A stretch of DNA of 64,000 bases. It comes from Thermococcus cleftensis (GTDB taxonomy: Archaea > Methanobacteriota_B > Thermococci > Thermococcales > Thermococcaceae). The notes beneath the pieces are model-generated. The model was not told the origin of the DNA. It saw nothing but the letters and a program-made list of their open reading frames with translations, and made no database searches. Below are positions 13,665 through 40,701 of this stretch, piece by piece (position 1 is the stretch's first letter; the number at the start of each line of letters is the position of its first letter). Position numbers and translations under genes: made by a program. The stretch lies in assembly GCF_000265525.1 (NCBI RefSeq), contig NC_018015.1:1524322-1588321 (forward strand), written 5' to 3'.

Positions 13665-16022
13665 ATGTACCTTCGTCGCGATATAATCGAGCCTCGCGTT
13701 TACCAGGAGGTCATCTACGCCCGGTGCAAGGAAACCAACTGCCTTGTCGTTCTGCCGACTGGATTAGGAAAGACGCTCATAGCGATGCTCATAGCAGACT
13801 ACCGCCTCTCCAGGTACGGTGGAAAGGTCCTCTTCCTCGCCCCAACGAAGCCCCTAGCGCTCCAGCACGCCGAGAGCTTTAGAAAGATCTTCAACCTCCC
13901 GCCGGAGAAAATCAACGTCCTCACCGGCGAGCTTTCGCCCGAAAAGAGGGCTGAGGTGTGGAGGGAGAGCGTCGTGATAACCGCCACGCCCCAAACCGTC
14001 GAGAACGACGTATTGACGGGCAGAATTTCGCTCGAGGACGTCGTTCTGCTGGTTGTAGACGAGGCCCACCGCGCGGTTGGAAACTACGCCTACGTCTTCA
14101 TAGCGAAGGAGTACCTCAAAACTGCCAAACACCCGCTCGTTCTGGGATTGACTGCCTCCCCGGGGAGCGACGAGGAGAAGATACGCGAGATAGTGAGGAA
14201 CCTCGGGATAGGGCGCATAGAAGTTAGAACCGAGAACTCGCCTGACGTCAAGCCTTACGTCCAGAGGATAGCTTTCGAGTGGGTGAAGGTTGAACTCCCA
14301 GGTATCTACACGGAGGTTCGCTCGCTCCTCAGGGAGATGCTGAAGGAGAGTCTCAAGCCCCTGGCCCAGTTCAAGCTCGTCTCGACCTATTCCCCCGACA
14401 TCTCCAAGAGGGAAGTCCTCCAGGCGGGCTCTAAAATCAACCGCGAGGTTGCCATGGGCAACTACGAGCTGGGCCGGCTTAGAATGTACCAGGCGAAGGC
14501 GGTGAAGCTTCAGCACGCGATAGAACTCCTCGAAACCCAAGGGCTGACCGCGTTGAGGGCCTACCTGAAGAAGCTCCGCGAGGATAAGAGAACCAAGTCC
14601 AGCAGGGAGCTGATGGAAGACCCCCGTATGAGGAAGGTGATTTACCTCCTCGTTCAGGCGAAGGAGATGGGAATGGACCACCCCAAGATGGAGAAGCTCA
14701 AGGAGCTCATCAAAAAACAGCTAGAGAGAAAGCCCAACTCAAAAATAATCGTTTTCACCAACTACCGCGACACGGGAAGGAAAATCGTCGAGGAGCTTGG
14801 GGGACTTGGTATAAGCGCCGAGCGCTTCATCGGACAGGCCAGCAGGGGAAAGGATAAGGGAATGAGCCAGAGGAAGCAGAAGGAAACTCTTGAGCGCTTT
14901 TCCAGGGGTGAATTTAACGTTCTCGTCGCCACGAGCGTCGGCGAGGAGGGTCTAGACGTTCCCGAGGTTGATCTGGTGGTCTTCTATGAACCAGTGCCTT
15001 CGGCGATAAGGAGCATACAGCGTCGTGGTAGAACCGGCAGGCACAGGCCCGGGAAGGTAGTAATCCTTATGGCAAAGGGGACGCGCGATGAGGCCTACTA
15101 CTGGAGCTCCAGGAGGAAGGAGAGGGGAATGTTCGAAGCGGTAAGGAAGGTGGCGGGTGAGCTTGAGCGCGCACGTAACGGAGGAGATAAACCGGAAGGG
15201 CGGAAGGGGAGTGTTGAGATGTCCGCGAGGGGTAGGATAACTTCCCTCGACCAGTTTTTGAAGCCGAAGAGAGTTGAAAGGACCGATAAATCCGGACGTG
15301 AGCCAAAAGAGAAGTCGGAGAAACCGGCCGAGGAGCGGAAGGAACTCCCAATAAAGCCCGTTTTCGTGAGGAAACCCAAGGGGATAGTCGTTTACGTCGA
15401 TTCCCGCGAGTTGAGGAGCGGGGTTCCGAAGCTGTTGAAGGAACTCGGGGCGGAGGTTGAGGTCAGGACGCTCGACGTTGCCGACTACGTCGTCAGCGAG
15501 GAGGTCGGGATAGAGAGGAAGAGCGCCAACGACTTCATACAGTCAATCATAGACGGCAGGCTCTTTGACCAGGTGGAGAGGCTTAAGAGGGCCTACGAGA
15601 AGCCGGTGATAATCATCGAGGGCGAGCTTTACGGGGTAAGGAACGTTCACCCCAACGCCATTCGCGGTGCCATAGCCGCTGTGACCCTCGACTGGGGAGT
15701 GCCGATACTCTTCTCCTCGGGCAAGGAGGAAACCGCGAGCTTCATCTACCTCCTGGCCAAGCGCGAGCAGGAGGAGAGGAAGAAGGAGGTCCGCCTTAGG
15801 AGCGAGAAGAAGGCCCTAACCCTGGCGGAGAGGCAGAGGCTAATCGTTGAGGGCCTGCCAAACGTTTCAGCAACGCTCGCCAAGAGACTGCTGAGGCACT
15901 TCGGCAACGTGGAGAGGGTTTTCACCGCGACGGAGGAGGAACTCAAGGAGGTTGAAGGAATAGGCGAGAAGAAGGCGAGGGAGATTAGGAAGGTCATCAC
16001 GGCTCCTTATGTGGAGGAGTAG
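13665..16022 (+). CDS. hef: Hef: FANCM/XPF-like helicase-nuclease
   Basis: A 785-residue archaeal Hef, which processes stalled replication forks. The N-terminal superfamily 2 helicase has PTGLGKT at residues 31-37, a DEAH box near 131 and the arginine-finger motif QRRGRTGR near 458. After a charged linker (about 510-570) comes the XPF-type nuclease with the ERK...D signature near residue 616, then a tandem helix-hairpin-helix region near the C-terminus (EGLPNVSATLAKRLL and VEGIGEKKAREI). The length matches Pyrococcus Hef. Transcription is probably leaderless from the shared TATA box at 13636. Confidence 0.96.
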   Translation: MYLRRDIIEPRVYQEVIYARCKETNCLVVLPTGLGKTLIAMLIADYRLSRYGGKVLFLAPTKPLALQHAESFRKIFNLPPEKINVLTGELSPEKRAEVWRESVVITATPQTVENDVLTGRISLEDVVLLVVDEAHRAVGNYAYVFIAKEYLKTAKHPLVLGLTASPGSDEEKIREIVRNLGIGRIEVRTENSPDVKPYVQRIAFEWVKVELPGIYTEVRSLLREMLKESLKPLAQFKLVSTYSPDISKREVLQAGSKINREVAMGNYELGRLRMYQAKAVKLQHAIELLETQGLTALRAYLKKLREDKRTKSSRELMEDPRMRKVIYLLVQAKEMGMDHPKMEKLKELIKKQLERKPNSKIIVFTNYRDTGRKIVEELGGLGISAERFIGQASRGKDKGMSQRKQKETLERFSRGEFNVLVATSVGEEGLDVPEVDLVVFYEPVPSAIRSIQRRGRTGRHRPGKVVILMAKGTRDEAYYWSSRRKERGMFEAVRKVAGELERARNGGDKPEGRKGSVEMSARGRITSLDQFLKPKRVERTDKSGREPKEKSEKPAEERKELPIKPVFVRKPKGIVVYVDSRELRSGVPKLLKELGAEVEVRTLDVADYVVSEEVGIERKSANDFIQSIIDGRLFDQVERLKRAYEKPVIIIEGELYGVRNVHPNAIRGAIAAVTLDWGVPILFSSGKEETASFIYLLAKREQEERKKEVRLRSEKKALTLAERQRLIVEGLPNVSATLAKRLLRHFGNVERVFTATEEELKEVEGIGEKKAREIRKVITAPYVEE

Positions 16023-16717
16023 CCCATCAGCCGGTAGTCGTCCCCTGCCACGGTGACCTCAATGTCGAGCGAATCGGGTATACCGCTGGTCTCGAAGGCC
16101 AGAACCACATAGTTGTCCCTCTTTTTGTCGGGGAACCTCACGCGGAGCACGCTTCCGGGGGTAATCTCCCCGGTTCCCCCGTAGTACTCGAGCTTCCAGT
16201 CCGCGGGCACTGTGAGGCTGAGCCCCTCAACGCCGTTTCTTCCCCCGAGGTCGTAGAGGCTCACGAAGATGACGGCCCACCTGGGGGTCATTATCCCGGC
16301 CCCGTCTATCCTCTGGCTCATGTCCGGAGCCGGACTCTCGAACTCGAACTCCGAGGGCGTTTCGTTGGTGATGGCGAATCGGCCGTAGAGAAGGGTGTCG
16401 TTGGCGAAAACGTATGAAAGTCCGATGAACTTCTTTCTCCCAGGAACGTCACGGTACATCTCCTTGAAGAGCTCTAAGGGATAGTTAGGACTGCGCTGCT
16501 CGAGATAGGCCCTCTCCACCGCCCTGGCGGTTGCCTTCCCACCGGTGGTCGGGCTGGCCCTCACCAGGTATCCCATCAGGGTTTCGTGATTGACTACCGG
16601 ACAGGTGCGGATCCCGCCGGAGGTGTCATCGTGGACGGCGAGAGCGTAGGAGAAAACCGCTCCAATCGCCATTCCCACGAGAATCCCAACCACGAGCTCT
16701 CGGGAGATTCCTTTCAT
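16007..16717 (-). CDS. Membrane-anchored exported hypothetical protein
   Basis: A 236-residue protein with one N-terminal hydrophobic segment (ELVVGILVGMAIGAVFSYAL, about residues 6-25) and a long extracytoplasmic part rich in beta-strand patterns. It lacks a lipobox, so it is probably a signal-anchor protein on the outer face. No family recognised. The start ATG 16717 follows GGTGGC; the upstream codons to 16726 are less likely. It is convergent with hef and overlaps its 3' end by 16 bases. Confidence 0.65.
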   Translation of the reverse strand: MKGISRELVVGILVGMAIGAVFSYALAVHDDTSGGIRTCPVVNHETLMGYLVRASPTTGGKATARAVERAYLEQRSPNYPLELFKEMYRDVPGRKKFIGLSYVFANDTLLYGRFAITNETPSEFEFESPAPDMSQRIDGAGIMTPRWAVIFVSLYDLGGRNGVEGLSLTVPADWKLEYYGGTGEITPGSVLRVRFPDKKRDNYVVLAFETSGIPDSLDIEVTVAGDDYRLMGYSST

Positions 16718-16845
16718 CTGTGCCACCGATGAGTTTTACGCACTGAAGGTTTAAATATGTTTGGCCTGTGCGTTCTTTGGGAGAGTAAAACCTGGAAACA
16801 ACTTACCTGATAAGCATTTTTCTGTCTTAGAAAGCTTCGCTGGGA

Positions 16846-17083
16846 GTTTGTAGCTCTTCTCTATGTTGTAACCTGGAAATGTGGTTTCCAAACTTGAGGC
16901 TGATGTTTCAAGTGAGAACCACTTTGGGTTCCTGTTGAGGGGGTTTAACTCCAAAAGACGCCCGAAGGGCGTCAAAAGAAAGCAAACCCCTGTATTAGAG
17001 TATTCTGGAGTTGTTCTCCGTGTTAAACGCTCCAAAATGGGGAAACCACTTGGAGATGGGTACTTCAAGAAGGAGCTACAAAC
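16846..17083. repeat. Imperfect palindromic element, copy 1
   Basis: A 238-bp imperfect palindrome lying in the 699-bp gene-free stretch 16718-17416. The arms mirror around a perfect GACGCCC-GAA-GGGCGTC hairpin at 16957-16973. Matching blocks at equal distances from the centre are GTTTGTAGCTC (16846) with its complement ending at 17083, GTGGTTTCC (16881) with GGAAACCAC ending at 17049, GAGAAC (16914) with GTTCTC ending at 17018, and a GGGGTTT block beside the hairpin. The same layout appears at 17177-17416 and 40294-40591. No convincing gene or transposase lies inside. The bases before 16846 hold nothing I recognise. Confidence 0.75.
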
Positions 17084-17084
17084 C

Positions 17085-17176
17085 TTGGTCAAACTCTGCG
17101 GGACTGGCGTCCCTCGCGTCGAGCGAGGCTCGACGTCGCGCAGGCGAACAAACTTTGCTTTGCAAAGTTTGACCAA
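17085..17176. repeat. Nested GC-rich hairpin cluster between two palindromic elements
   Basis: An 11-bp perfect inverted repeat (TTGGTCAAACT at 17085-17095, its complement at 17166-17176) encloses three further hairpins. They are GGGAC-TGGC-GTCCC, an 8-bp stem CGTCGAGC with its complement around loop GAG (17117-17135), and a 9-bp stem AAACTTTGC with its complement around TTT (17150-17170). GC content here is far above the flanks. It could be a structured RNA or part of a composite repeat; no coding sense was found. Confidence 0.6.
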
Positions 17177-17416
17177 AAGGCTCTGACTGCATGCTAGGGA
17201 GAAGGTAGTTGCATGCCTCGTTAGTGGGCATTTTATCGAGGGTTTGTATTGATTAGAGACCTATTGAAGGGGTTTTATCTAAGAACAGCGCCCGAAGGGC
17301 GCTAAGGAGAAGAAAACCCCAACCAAAACAAGCGAGTTAATGACAAACCCCTAACTAACTTGCATGTTCTGATAAGGCATGCTAGCTTTGATGAAGCTTT
17401 CCGGTAGAAACGTTTC
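17177..17416. repeat. Imperfect palindromic element, copy 2, abutting tRNA-Leu
   Basis: A second palindrome centred on GCGCCC-GAA-GGGCGC at 17288-17302. Mirrored blocks: GGGGTTTT (17269) with AAAACCCC ending at 17320, GGGTTTGT (17240) with ACAAACCC ending at 17350, and GCATGC near 17211 with GCATGC near 17377. The right end is the palindrome GAAACGTTTC at 17407-17416, which touches the CCA of tRNA-Leu. Arm sequence is related to copies 1 and 3, but the hairpin stem differs by compensating bases (GCG/CGC instead of GACG/CGTC), as expected if pairing is conserved. Confidence 0.7.
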
Positions 17417-17504
17417 TGGTGCGGGGGCGGGGATTTGAACCCCGGAACCCCTACGGGACGGGACCCTCAATCCCGCGCCTTTGACCAGGCTCGGCAACCC
17501 CCGC
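17417..17504 (-). tRNA. tRNA-Leu (anticodon GAG)
   Basis: An 88-nt tRNA with encoded CCA. Acceptor GCGGGGG pairs with the 3' CCCCCGC, and the D-arm, a long class II variable arm and the TTCAAAT T-loop are present. The anticodon loop TTGAGGG gives anticodon GAG, reading CTC and CTT leucine codons. No intron. A TTTATAAA box lies about 30 bases upstream at 17532-17539 on the minus strand. The 3' end abuts the palindromic element at 17177-17416. Confidence 0.95.
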
Positions 17505-17615: not shown

Positions 17616-17693
17616 GGGCCGGTAGCTCAGCATGGTTAGAGCGCGGGACTCTTAATCCCGTGGTCGGGGGTTCGAATCCCCCCCGGCCCGCCA
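17616..17693 (+). tRNA. tRNA-Lys (anticodon CTT)
   Basis: A 78-nt tRNA with encoded CCA. Acceptor GGGCCGG pairs with CCGGCCC, discriminator G. The anticodon loop CTCTTAA gives anticodon CTT for lysine AAG codons, and the T-loop TTCGAAT is intact. A TTTATAAA box at about 17579-17586 precedes it. It is divergent from tRNA-Leu, and the DEAD-box helicase gene starts 69 bases downstream with no separate strong TATA box, so read-through transcription is possible. Confidence 0.96.
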
Positions 17694-20170: not shown

Positions 20171-20238
20171 TGTGCCCCCGGGGAGCGAAGGGAAATCATC
20201 GCTCGCCGAGCGCTCATTCCCCGCGGTTTCCCGGGGGC
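20171..20238 (-). ncRNA. Box H/ACA guide RNA (rRNA pseudouridylation)
   Basis: A 68-nt single-hairpin RNA on the minus strand. A 9-bp lower stem (GCCCCCGGG at 20238-20230 with CCCGGGGGC at 20182-20174) is followed directly by ACA at 20173-20171. Above it, an internal loop (AAACCGC on the 5' side, TTCGCTC on the 3' side) forms the pseudouridylation pocket. The upper stem GGGAA/TTCCC leads into a K-turn (TGA on one strand, ATGAT on the other) capped by a GC-rich hairpin. Stem lengths and ACA placement match Pyrococcus H/ACA RNAs. A weak TATA-like element lies about 26 bases upstream. The target U is not assigned. Confidence 0.82.
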
Positions 20239-40100: not shown

Positions 40101-40293
40101 CCTTTTCTATGTTTTTGATTCCCGCTGGGAGGGGTTCTGAAACCATACTTGAAACTTGAATCCAAGGAGAAAATTCGTTATTGACGTTCGATGGAGCCGT
40201 TTTTAGAGTGAAGCACTCCCCAAGGGCAACTCGAGAATAAACCCGCGTTAAACGGAGACTCTTAGATAAGGCACCTGATCTTTCGCCAGCGCT

Positions 40294-40591
40294 GAAACTT
40301 TTGGAAAGGCTTCACCAAAAGCACGTAGCCCCTCTTTAAAAAGGTTCCAATGCGAGGATTTTTACCCCCAGTGCTCGTTTCTAAGAGAGAACACGTTGAG
40401 AATAAGCCTCAAAACGGGGTTACTCTCTCCTTGACGCCCTTCGGGCGTCGATTTAAAAGCAAACCCACACCCAAGAAATAAGTCAAAAAGTTCTCAACTC
40501 AAACGGCCGATTGGTAGGAAAATCACTTTAAAATTCGGCTTTCCAAAAAGAGCCACGAGCTTTGGTGGAACTTTTGTCTGTCAAAAGTTTC
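40294..40591. repeat. Imperfect palindromic element, copy 3, next to tRNA-Met
   Basis: A 298-bp palindrome in the gene-free stretch 40101-40593. It is centred on GACGCCC-TTC-GGGCGTC at 40433-40449. The termini are GAAACTTTTG at 40294-40303 and CAAAAGTTTC at 40582-40591, the latter 2 bases from the CCA of tRNA-Met. Internal mirrored blocks include CACCAAAAGC with GCTTTGGTGG, and GAGAAC with GTTCTC. The arms align with copies 1 and 2. The preceding 193 bases (40101-40293) hold no gene but include GTTAAACGGAGA, which resembles an arm of copy 1, so a decayed further copy is possible. Confidence 0.75.
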
Positions 40592-40593
40592 TG

Positions 40594-40701
40594 TGGTGCC
40601 GGGGCGGGGCTTTGAACCCCGGACCTCTCGGTTTCTCAGGCTCCCCCGAGGGGGAGCGGCCCTATGAGCCGAGCGCTCTGACCAGGCTAAGCTACCCCGG
40701 C
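40594..40701 (-). tRNA. Elongator tRNA-Met (anticodon CAT) with an intron
   Basis: A 108-nt gene including CCA. Acceptor GCCGGGG pairs with CCCCGGC; the T-loop is TTCAAAG. The anticodon arm CTCGG / CCGAG is interrupted by about 30 bases that fold into a strong hairpin (GCTCCCCC with GGGGGAGC). Removing them leaves the loop CTCATAA, so anticodon CAT, and the cut sites would form the bulge-helix-bulge recognised by the archaeal splicing endonuclease. The intron position after base 37 is canonical. A TTTAAAAA box lies near 40738 inside the end of the helicase gene. Confidence 0.93.

Follow-up and report, generated by a model that had tools for sequence, protein, structure and literature searches.

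Palindromic, probably mobile repeats docked at tRNA 3' ends in Thermococcus

The archaeal elements closest to the repeats described here are the PATEs and SMRs of Haloquadratum, which carry no transposase and undergo core deletions that leave terminal pieces behind (PMC3119063). PATEs have near-terminal palindromes and generate no target duplication, and SMR-A repeats insert into these palindromes, placing a secondary hairpin repeat inside a terminal one (PMC3119063). Casposons, which encode cas1 and polB and are flanked by target-site duplications, set a precedent among archaea for elements lying next to tRNA 3' ends; five euryarchaeal casposons have targets that overlap the final 4-7 nt of a tRNA gene, and these casposons sit beside the intact gene (PMC4046053). 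In Thermococcales, tRNA 3' ends also serve as integration sites for plasmids and viruses that use tyrosine integrases and whose insertion re-creates a copy of the tRNA 3' end (PMC8371274, PMC6972569). Finally, REPs are dispersed small palindromes of 20-40 bp, thought to be non-autonomous and mobilized by RAYT transposases that are present in many hosts (PMC3733652).

Here, we analyzed a 64,000-nt stretch of the Thermococcus cleftensis genome (NC_018015.1, positions 1,524,322-1,588,321; hereafter, the window), in which a first-pass annotation had pointed out two tandem imperfect palindromes of about 240 bp beside a tRNA pair. The arms, the cores, the intervening hairpin cluster, and the neighboring tRNA-Leu/tRNA-Lys pair were all located (Table 1), and the folds are more stable than those of shuffled sequences. 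Across 16780-17416, the folding z score was -12.2 on the minus strand and -8.2 for the whole region on the plus strand, each against only 20 shuffles. These palindromes are two tandem copies of a Thermococcus-specific, non-coding, transposase-less family of probably mobile repeats that sits at tRNA 3' ends.

Table 1. Coordinates of the repeat units and neighboring genes in the window.
Feature	Position	Strand	Remarks
Small gene, other flank of the two units	16007-16726	-	
Copy 1, palindromic arms	16846-17083	-	Inverted ends GTTTGTAGCTC...GAGCTACAAAC; fold z -6.2 (0 of 200 shuffles as stable); R2 match, E 1.1e-10
Copy 1, core hairpin	16957-16973		GACGCCC-GAA-GGGCGTC
Copy 1, H1 enlarged by nested insert	17090-17149	-	
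Two-hairpin insert in copy 1 H1	17096-17136	-	41 nt
Copy 2, distal hairpin H2	17149-17171	-	CAAACTTTGC...GCAAAGTTTG; linker reaches 17179
Copy 2, palindromic arms and linker	17177-17392	-	ATCAAAG on tRNA side; fold z -3.3 (1 of 200 shuffles as stable); R2 match, E 4.7e-10
Copy 2, core hairpin	17287-17303		AGCGCCC-GAA-GGGCGCT
Copy 2, terminal hairpin H1	17393-17416	-	GAAACGTTTCTACCGGAAAGCTTC on tRNA strand; immediately 3' of tRNA-Leu CCA; R1 match at genome 1541694-1541738, E 2.1e-10
tRNA-Leu(GAG), docking gene	17417-17504	-	CCA at 17417-17419
tRNA-Lys	17616-17693		Second member of the tRNA pair
Third family copy	40293-40592	-	Core at 40433-40449
Intron-containing tRNA beside third copy	40594-40701	-	CAT anticodon visible; CCA ends 1-2 nt before H1

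The units share one plan and are 240-300 bp in length. Starting from the tRNA, this plan comprises a terminal hairpin with a 10-bp stem (H1), a SATCAAAG linker, a GTAGCTC inverted end, arms surrounding a GC-rich core hairpin (for example, GACGCCC-GAA-GGGCGTC), the matching GAGCTAC end, a SACCAAAAG linker (read as its reverse complement), and a distal hairpin (H2). No ORF was found in the unit, in keeping with the first-pass view that the palindromes hold no gene. Its account, in which the arms mirror each other for over 100 bp with only a base or two out of place, was overstated, however: in 50 family members, complementarity between the arms is typically 53-68%, and bulges and side hairpins interrupt the pairing. 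A BLAST search of the region against the own genome, a single contig of 1,950,313 bases, returned many partial copies. Two covariance models were used: R1, for the tRNA-side H1 end (the 10-bp hairpin plus SATCAAAGTTnGTAGCTC), and R2, for the core. In the own genome, R1 gave 23 matches at E < 1e-4, and R2 gave 17 cores at E < 1e-3; strong H1 ends number about 20. One of these copies is the third unit in the window, whose intron-containing neighbor is probably a tRNA-Met; this tRNA is absent from the default ARAGORN output, and ARAGORN run with introns reports a poor tRNA-Ser. Elsewhere in the window, the minus strand at 20171-20238 carries the Rfam Pab160 H/ACA guide RNA.

The hairpin cluster between the two palindromes (17085-17176) had been noted as a further nested structure. 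It is present, and resolves into the H2 of copy 2 adjoining the H1 of copy 1, the latter enlarged by the 41-nt insert. The same enlarged H1 form was found at other tRNAs in other species (genome G001 at 316099, 502977, and 1418424; genome G012 at 676700). At G001 316099 the insert is present, whereas it is absent from the orthologue at G012 368819, the distal parts of the two being 95.9% identical. A secondary hairpin repeat sits inside a terminal palindrome, as with SMR-A repeats in PATEs (PMC3119063).

Further copies proved abundant throughout the genus. At a cutoff of E 1e-6, R1 matched 58 of 61 Thermococcus genomes, with a maximum of 37 matches per genome; none were found in G003, G018, or the incomplete G066, and G007 had only three strong matches. 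Beyond the genus, R1 had no match in 16 genomes drawn from other families within its class, and an exact-pattern scan of a collection of genomes from 84,980 species matched only Thermococcus and Thermococcaceae MAGs. No family match was found in the plasmid and phage collections searched. The palindromes are therefore not an isolated pair whose covariation ends at the central hairpin, since copies are many and the terminal H1 covaries strongly. Searches of the open-licence full-text literature returned no account of a tRNA-associated palindrome family in Thermococcales, and in that literature the family appears previously undescribed.

The main feature of the family, missed by the first-pass annotation, is its precise docking at tRNA 3' ends. 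With the tRNA maps of the own genome and three relatives, 56 of the 57 tRNA-adjacent R1 ends in these four genomes are oriented toward the tRNA 3' end, and the outer edge of nearly all 3'-facing ends lies 2-8 nt past the last base of the tRNA model. Because the Rfam tRNA match stops before the CCA, the distance from the encoded CCA to the start of H1 is 0-7 nt. Several R1 ends first scored as non-tRNA (L158, L159, L162, L164, L167, and L169) abut intron-containing or otherwise missed tRNAs, leaving true exceptions such as 205905, 1146646, and 550947, the last apparently directly 3' of a stop codon. Across five tandem tRNA pairs from three genomes, a manual count placed an H1 end at 0 of 15 internal tRNAs versus about 10 of 15 last ones, and the tRNAs immediately upstream of apparent operon genes (544145-550118) are empty in three of three genomes. 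This distribution fits insertions being tolerated only if the tRNA has no co-transcribed gene downstream.

Other repeat classes were also observed in tRNA 3' flanks. A second class (CAGCCCTTTGC...GCAAAGCGCTGGCGGAAG) starts directly after the tRNA CCA in the 3' flanks at 356549, 405516, and 1324716 of G000 and is often located after the H2 of the first class; the tRNA-Leu flanks of G008 and G009 contain a similar core hairpin. A third class (CGAAAGACAAGGGGGCTCCGCCCCC...CTCTGTACTCTCAAACCCCCG) starts a few nucleotides after the CCA at G000 492499, at G001 1685107, and at 1798668 and 2002788 of G012.

The first-pass annotation had also proposed that pairing is conserved where sequence is not, on the grounds that the stem differs on both sides between the two copies. 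The cores do differ in this manner (Table 1), and across the family the proposal holds strongly for H1 and is also borne out in the core, but not in the outer arms. Among 129 distinct H1 ends, 97.0% of cells are paired versus 87.1 in shuffles, with a covariation score of 0.243 versus 0.086 and slid controls 31-57% paired; the R1 alignment was fitted to the model and is thus biased toward this pairing. The two-sided changes are direct, with 103 such cells versus 31.1 +/- 3.7 in shuffles, including G-C to C-G in 49 sequences and U-A to C-G in 18. Two-sided cells number 34 versus 14.3 +/- 4.7 in the core hairpin and 13 versus 6.8 +/- 2.2 in the GGGTTT/AAACCC blocks. Across classes, the outer arms pair slightly better with their own partner than with a foreign one; within a class, no copy-specific covariation was detected when own partners were compared with those of other copies (z 0.18 and -0.03). 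The arms therefore look like an inherited palindrome rather than pairing maintained copy by copy.

Comparison among species revealed that occupancy is patchy, with tRNA-Leu loci occupied, reduced to a relic, or empty. Orthologous tRNA-Leu(GAG) loci hold a unit, a unit of another class, an H1 relic, or nothing, and the distance from this tRNA to the next gene is 115 bp in G010 versus about 690 in the own genome. A seemingly clean empty site at tRNA-Ser (264095/688602/734002) was discarded, as a decayed copy lies there. Between G001 and the related G012, some units were inherited (98% identity over 301 nt, with flanks at 91-97%), whereas elsewhere the units at orthologous tRNAs differ considerably; an apparent contrast between a 98% conserved element and an unalignable flank was a short-flank artefact, given this flank identity. 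Relics are common, and loss keeps the CCA-proximal piece: G012 1097306 retains CCATAAGAAACTTTTGCCAAG, versus a full unit at G000 1937184, and several tRNA-Leu relics retain AAAC[G/T]TT(T)TCT immediately 3' of the CCA.

Most paralogues are only about 70-80% alike; thus, recent transposition is not seen. Judging from sequence identity, the clear recent copies link tRNAs of the same amino acid: two tRNA-Leu loci of G001 (1418424/502977) are 98% identical over 378 nt, with identity stopping at the unit's distal end; two of G000 (1409856/1541741) are 95.6% identical over 135 nt; and G012 1797744/722403 represents a recent copy between Val-type tRNAs. These few could be the product of gene conversion alone. 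Three chimeras were also detected, each with a switch point within about 13 nt of the core hairpin. In the G000 pair, the match stops 3-4 nt beyond the core; in the G012 pair, 100% identity begins at the core; and between a G001 copy and copy 1 of the window, 95% identity sets in about 12 nt beyond the core and extends across the distal half and the flank, the proximal half belonging to a different class.

The search for a mobilizing system covered several candidates. The Y1 transposase of IS200/IS605 elements (PF01797) occurs in 4 of the 22 genomes searched and was not found in the own genome; its absence from most carriers led us to reject IS200/IS605 mobilization in present genomes. No target-site duplication was detected above control, the longest word shared by tRNA end and distal flank being 5.9 versus 6.1 for other tRNAs. 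Casposase-like insertion and descent from a casposon were rejected because no duplication overlaps the tRNA end; moreover, the units lack the genes of casposons. A survey of ORFs by eye, at loci with ends away from listed tRNAs, revealed no autonomous partner inside the unit between paired ends, and the units do not qualify as MITEs given this result and the lack of duplication above control. Both the size of the unit and the absence of Y1_Tnp from the own genome and most carriers set it apart from REPs and BIMEs mobilized by a RAYT, which it resembles in being a dispersed small palindrome. Neither an integrase nor a regenerated copy of the tRNA 3' end was seen, in contrast to integrated plasmids and viruses. 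With PATEs, the units share palindromes near both termini (H1 and H2), a lack of target duplication, and a size too small for a transposase; they differ in their inverted ends (GTTTGTAGCTC/GAGCTACAAAC), PATEs being defined by the absence of terminal inverted repeats. PATEs also have ends akin to those of IS605-type transposons. Further differences from PATEs and SMRs are a body that itself forms one long palindrome, the docking at tRNA 3' ends, and the failure to find an IS605-type partner.

The best reading is that the units are old, non-autonomous, PATE/SMR-like mobile repeats whose mobilizer has been lost or is unrecognized. Of the three explanations offered in the first-pass annotation (a non-autonomous mobile element, a structured RNA, or a chromosome-architecture site), the mobile element fits best, as the units are multicopy, gene-free, patchy at orthologous sites, modular, and host to a nested insert. 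The ends located away from tRNAs, the lack of a linked transposase and of target-site duplications, and the absence from plasmids and phages count against it. Copies would have arrived by transposition, through an enzyme, now lost or unrecognized, whose substrate was probably either single-stranded hairpin ends or the 3' ends of tRNAs. H1 has a T-rich 5' arm (AAACTTTTCT) that may act as a tRNA terminator, and this would make the tRNA 3' site a safe haven; the motif retained in tRNA-Leu relics is consistent with such use. Once in place, copies pass on by vertical descent, disappear through deletions that often spare the CCA-proximal H1 piece, and recombine with one another, with tRNA genes for the same amino acid as anchors. 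The chimeric switches near the core, few as three cases are, suggest that the hairpin tip may be cut in a cruciform or hairpin by an Mre11-Rad50-type activity and the break repaired from another copy.

The strongest rival, though a rather unlikely one, dispenses with transposition altogether. Here, homology in the 3' half of tRNAs would let gene conversion or template switching copy the sequence after one CCA behind another tRNA, and any sequence behind one tRNA would tend to colonize others. The recent copies do join isoacceptor-like tRNAs (Leu/Leu twice and one Val-type pair), spacers between CCA and H1 are common to unrelated tRNAs (CCATAA, CCAGTTA, and CCACA), and unrelated repeat classes likewise begin directly after the CCA. 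However, the copies away from tRNAs are at odds with this account, as is the G001 Leu/Leu identity, which stops at the distal end of the element rather than at random, although a shared distal motif could supply the anchor.

A host-domesticated function, with the units selected as tRNA terminators, insulators, or chromosome-organizing sites, would explain the exact position after the CCA, the strong covariation of H1, and the outlasting of the rest by its T-rich piece at several tRNA-Leu loci. We consider it improbable in view of the patchiness at orthologous tRNAs, the many tRNAs that lack an element, the near absence from G003 and G018 with three strong matches in G007, and the lack of copy-specific covariation in the outer arms. 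Last, it seems highly improbable that the elements give rise to a family of structured non-coding RNAs. Folds are stable, and in 35 of 50 copies the tRNA-sense strand folds more stably than its complement; however, the Rfam search returned no family above the gathering threshold, the outer arms show no within-class covariation, and H1 opens with a T-rich stretch likely to terminate transcription. Arm mismatches favor G-T over A-C (387 versus 219), but in copies with this excess the G-T to A-C ratio (250:59) equals that of keto to amino transversions (163:38), so the excess reflects strand keto composition rather than RNA wobble pairs. The structured RNA was accordingly rejected as the main reading. 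Family members of G000, G001, G012, and others are clearly skewed toward keto bases (G+T), mostly on the strand with the tRNA sense, at 0.57 versus 0.46 in an oppositely biased group, some of which is reversed.

Yeast and Dictyostelium harbor retroelements that target tRNA genes. If the mobile-repeat reading is right, the Thermococcus units would be comparable to these in strategy, but archaeal and non-coding, and would form a natural record of small DNA elements that encode no enzyme yet home in on tRNA genes almost to the base. A bolder version, put forward tentatively, is that these genus-wide elements find tRNA genes by the 3' (CCA) end, possibly via an unrecognized enzyme or a tRNA-guided single-strand mechanism, with copies kept alike by breakage and repair at the central hairpin; they would then be the first archaeal palindromic repeat family specific to tRNA ends. 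The chimeric junctions at the core would also make hairpin-tip breakage in hyperthermophiles testable. In practical terms, the family would explain the highly variable tRNA 3' flanks of Thermococcus genomes.
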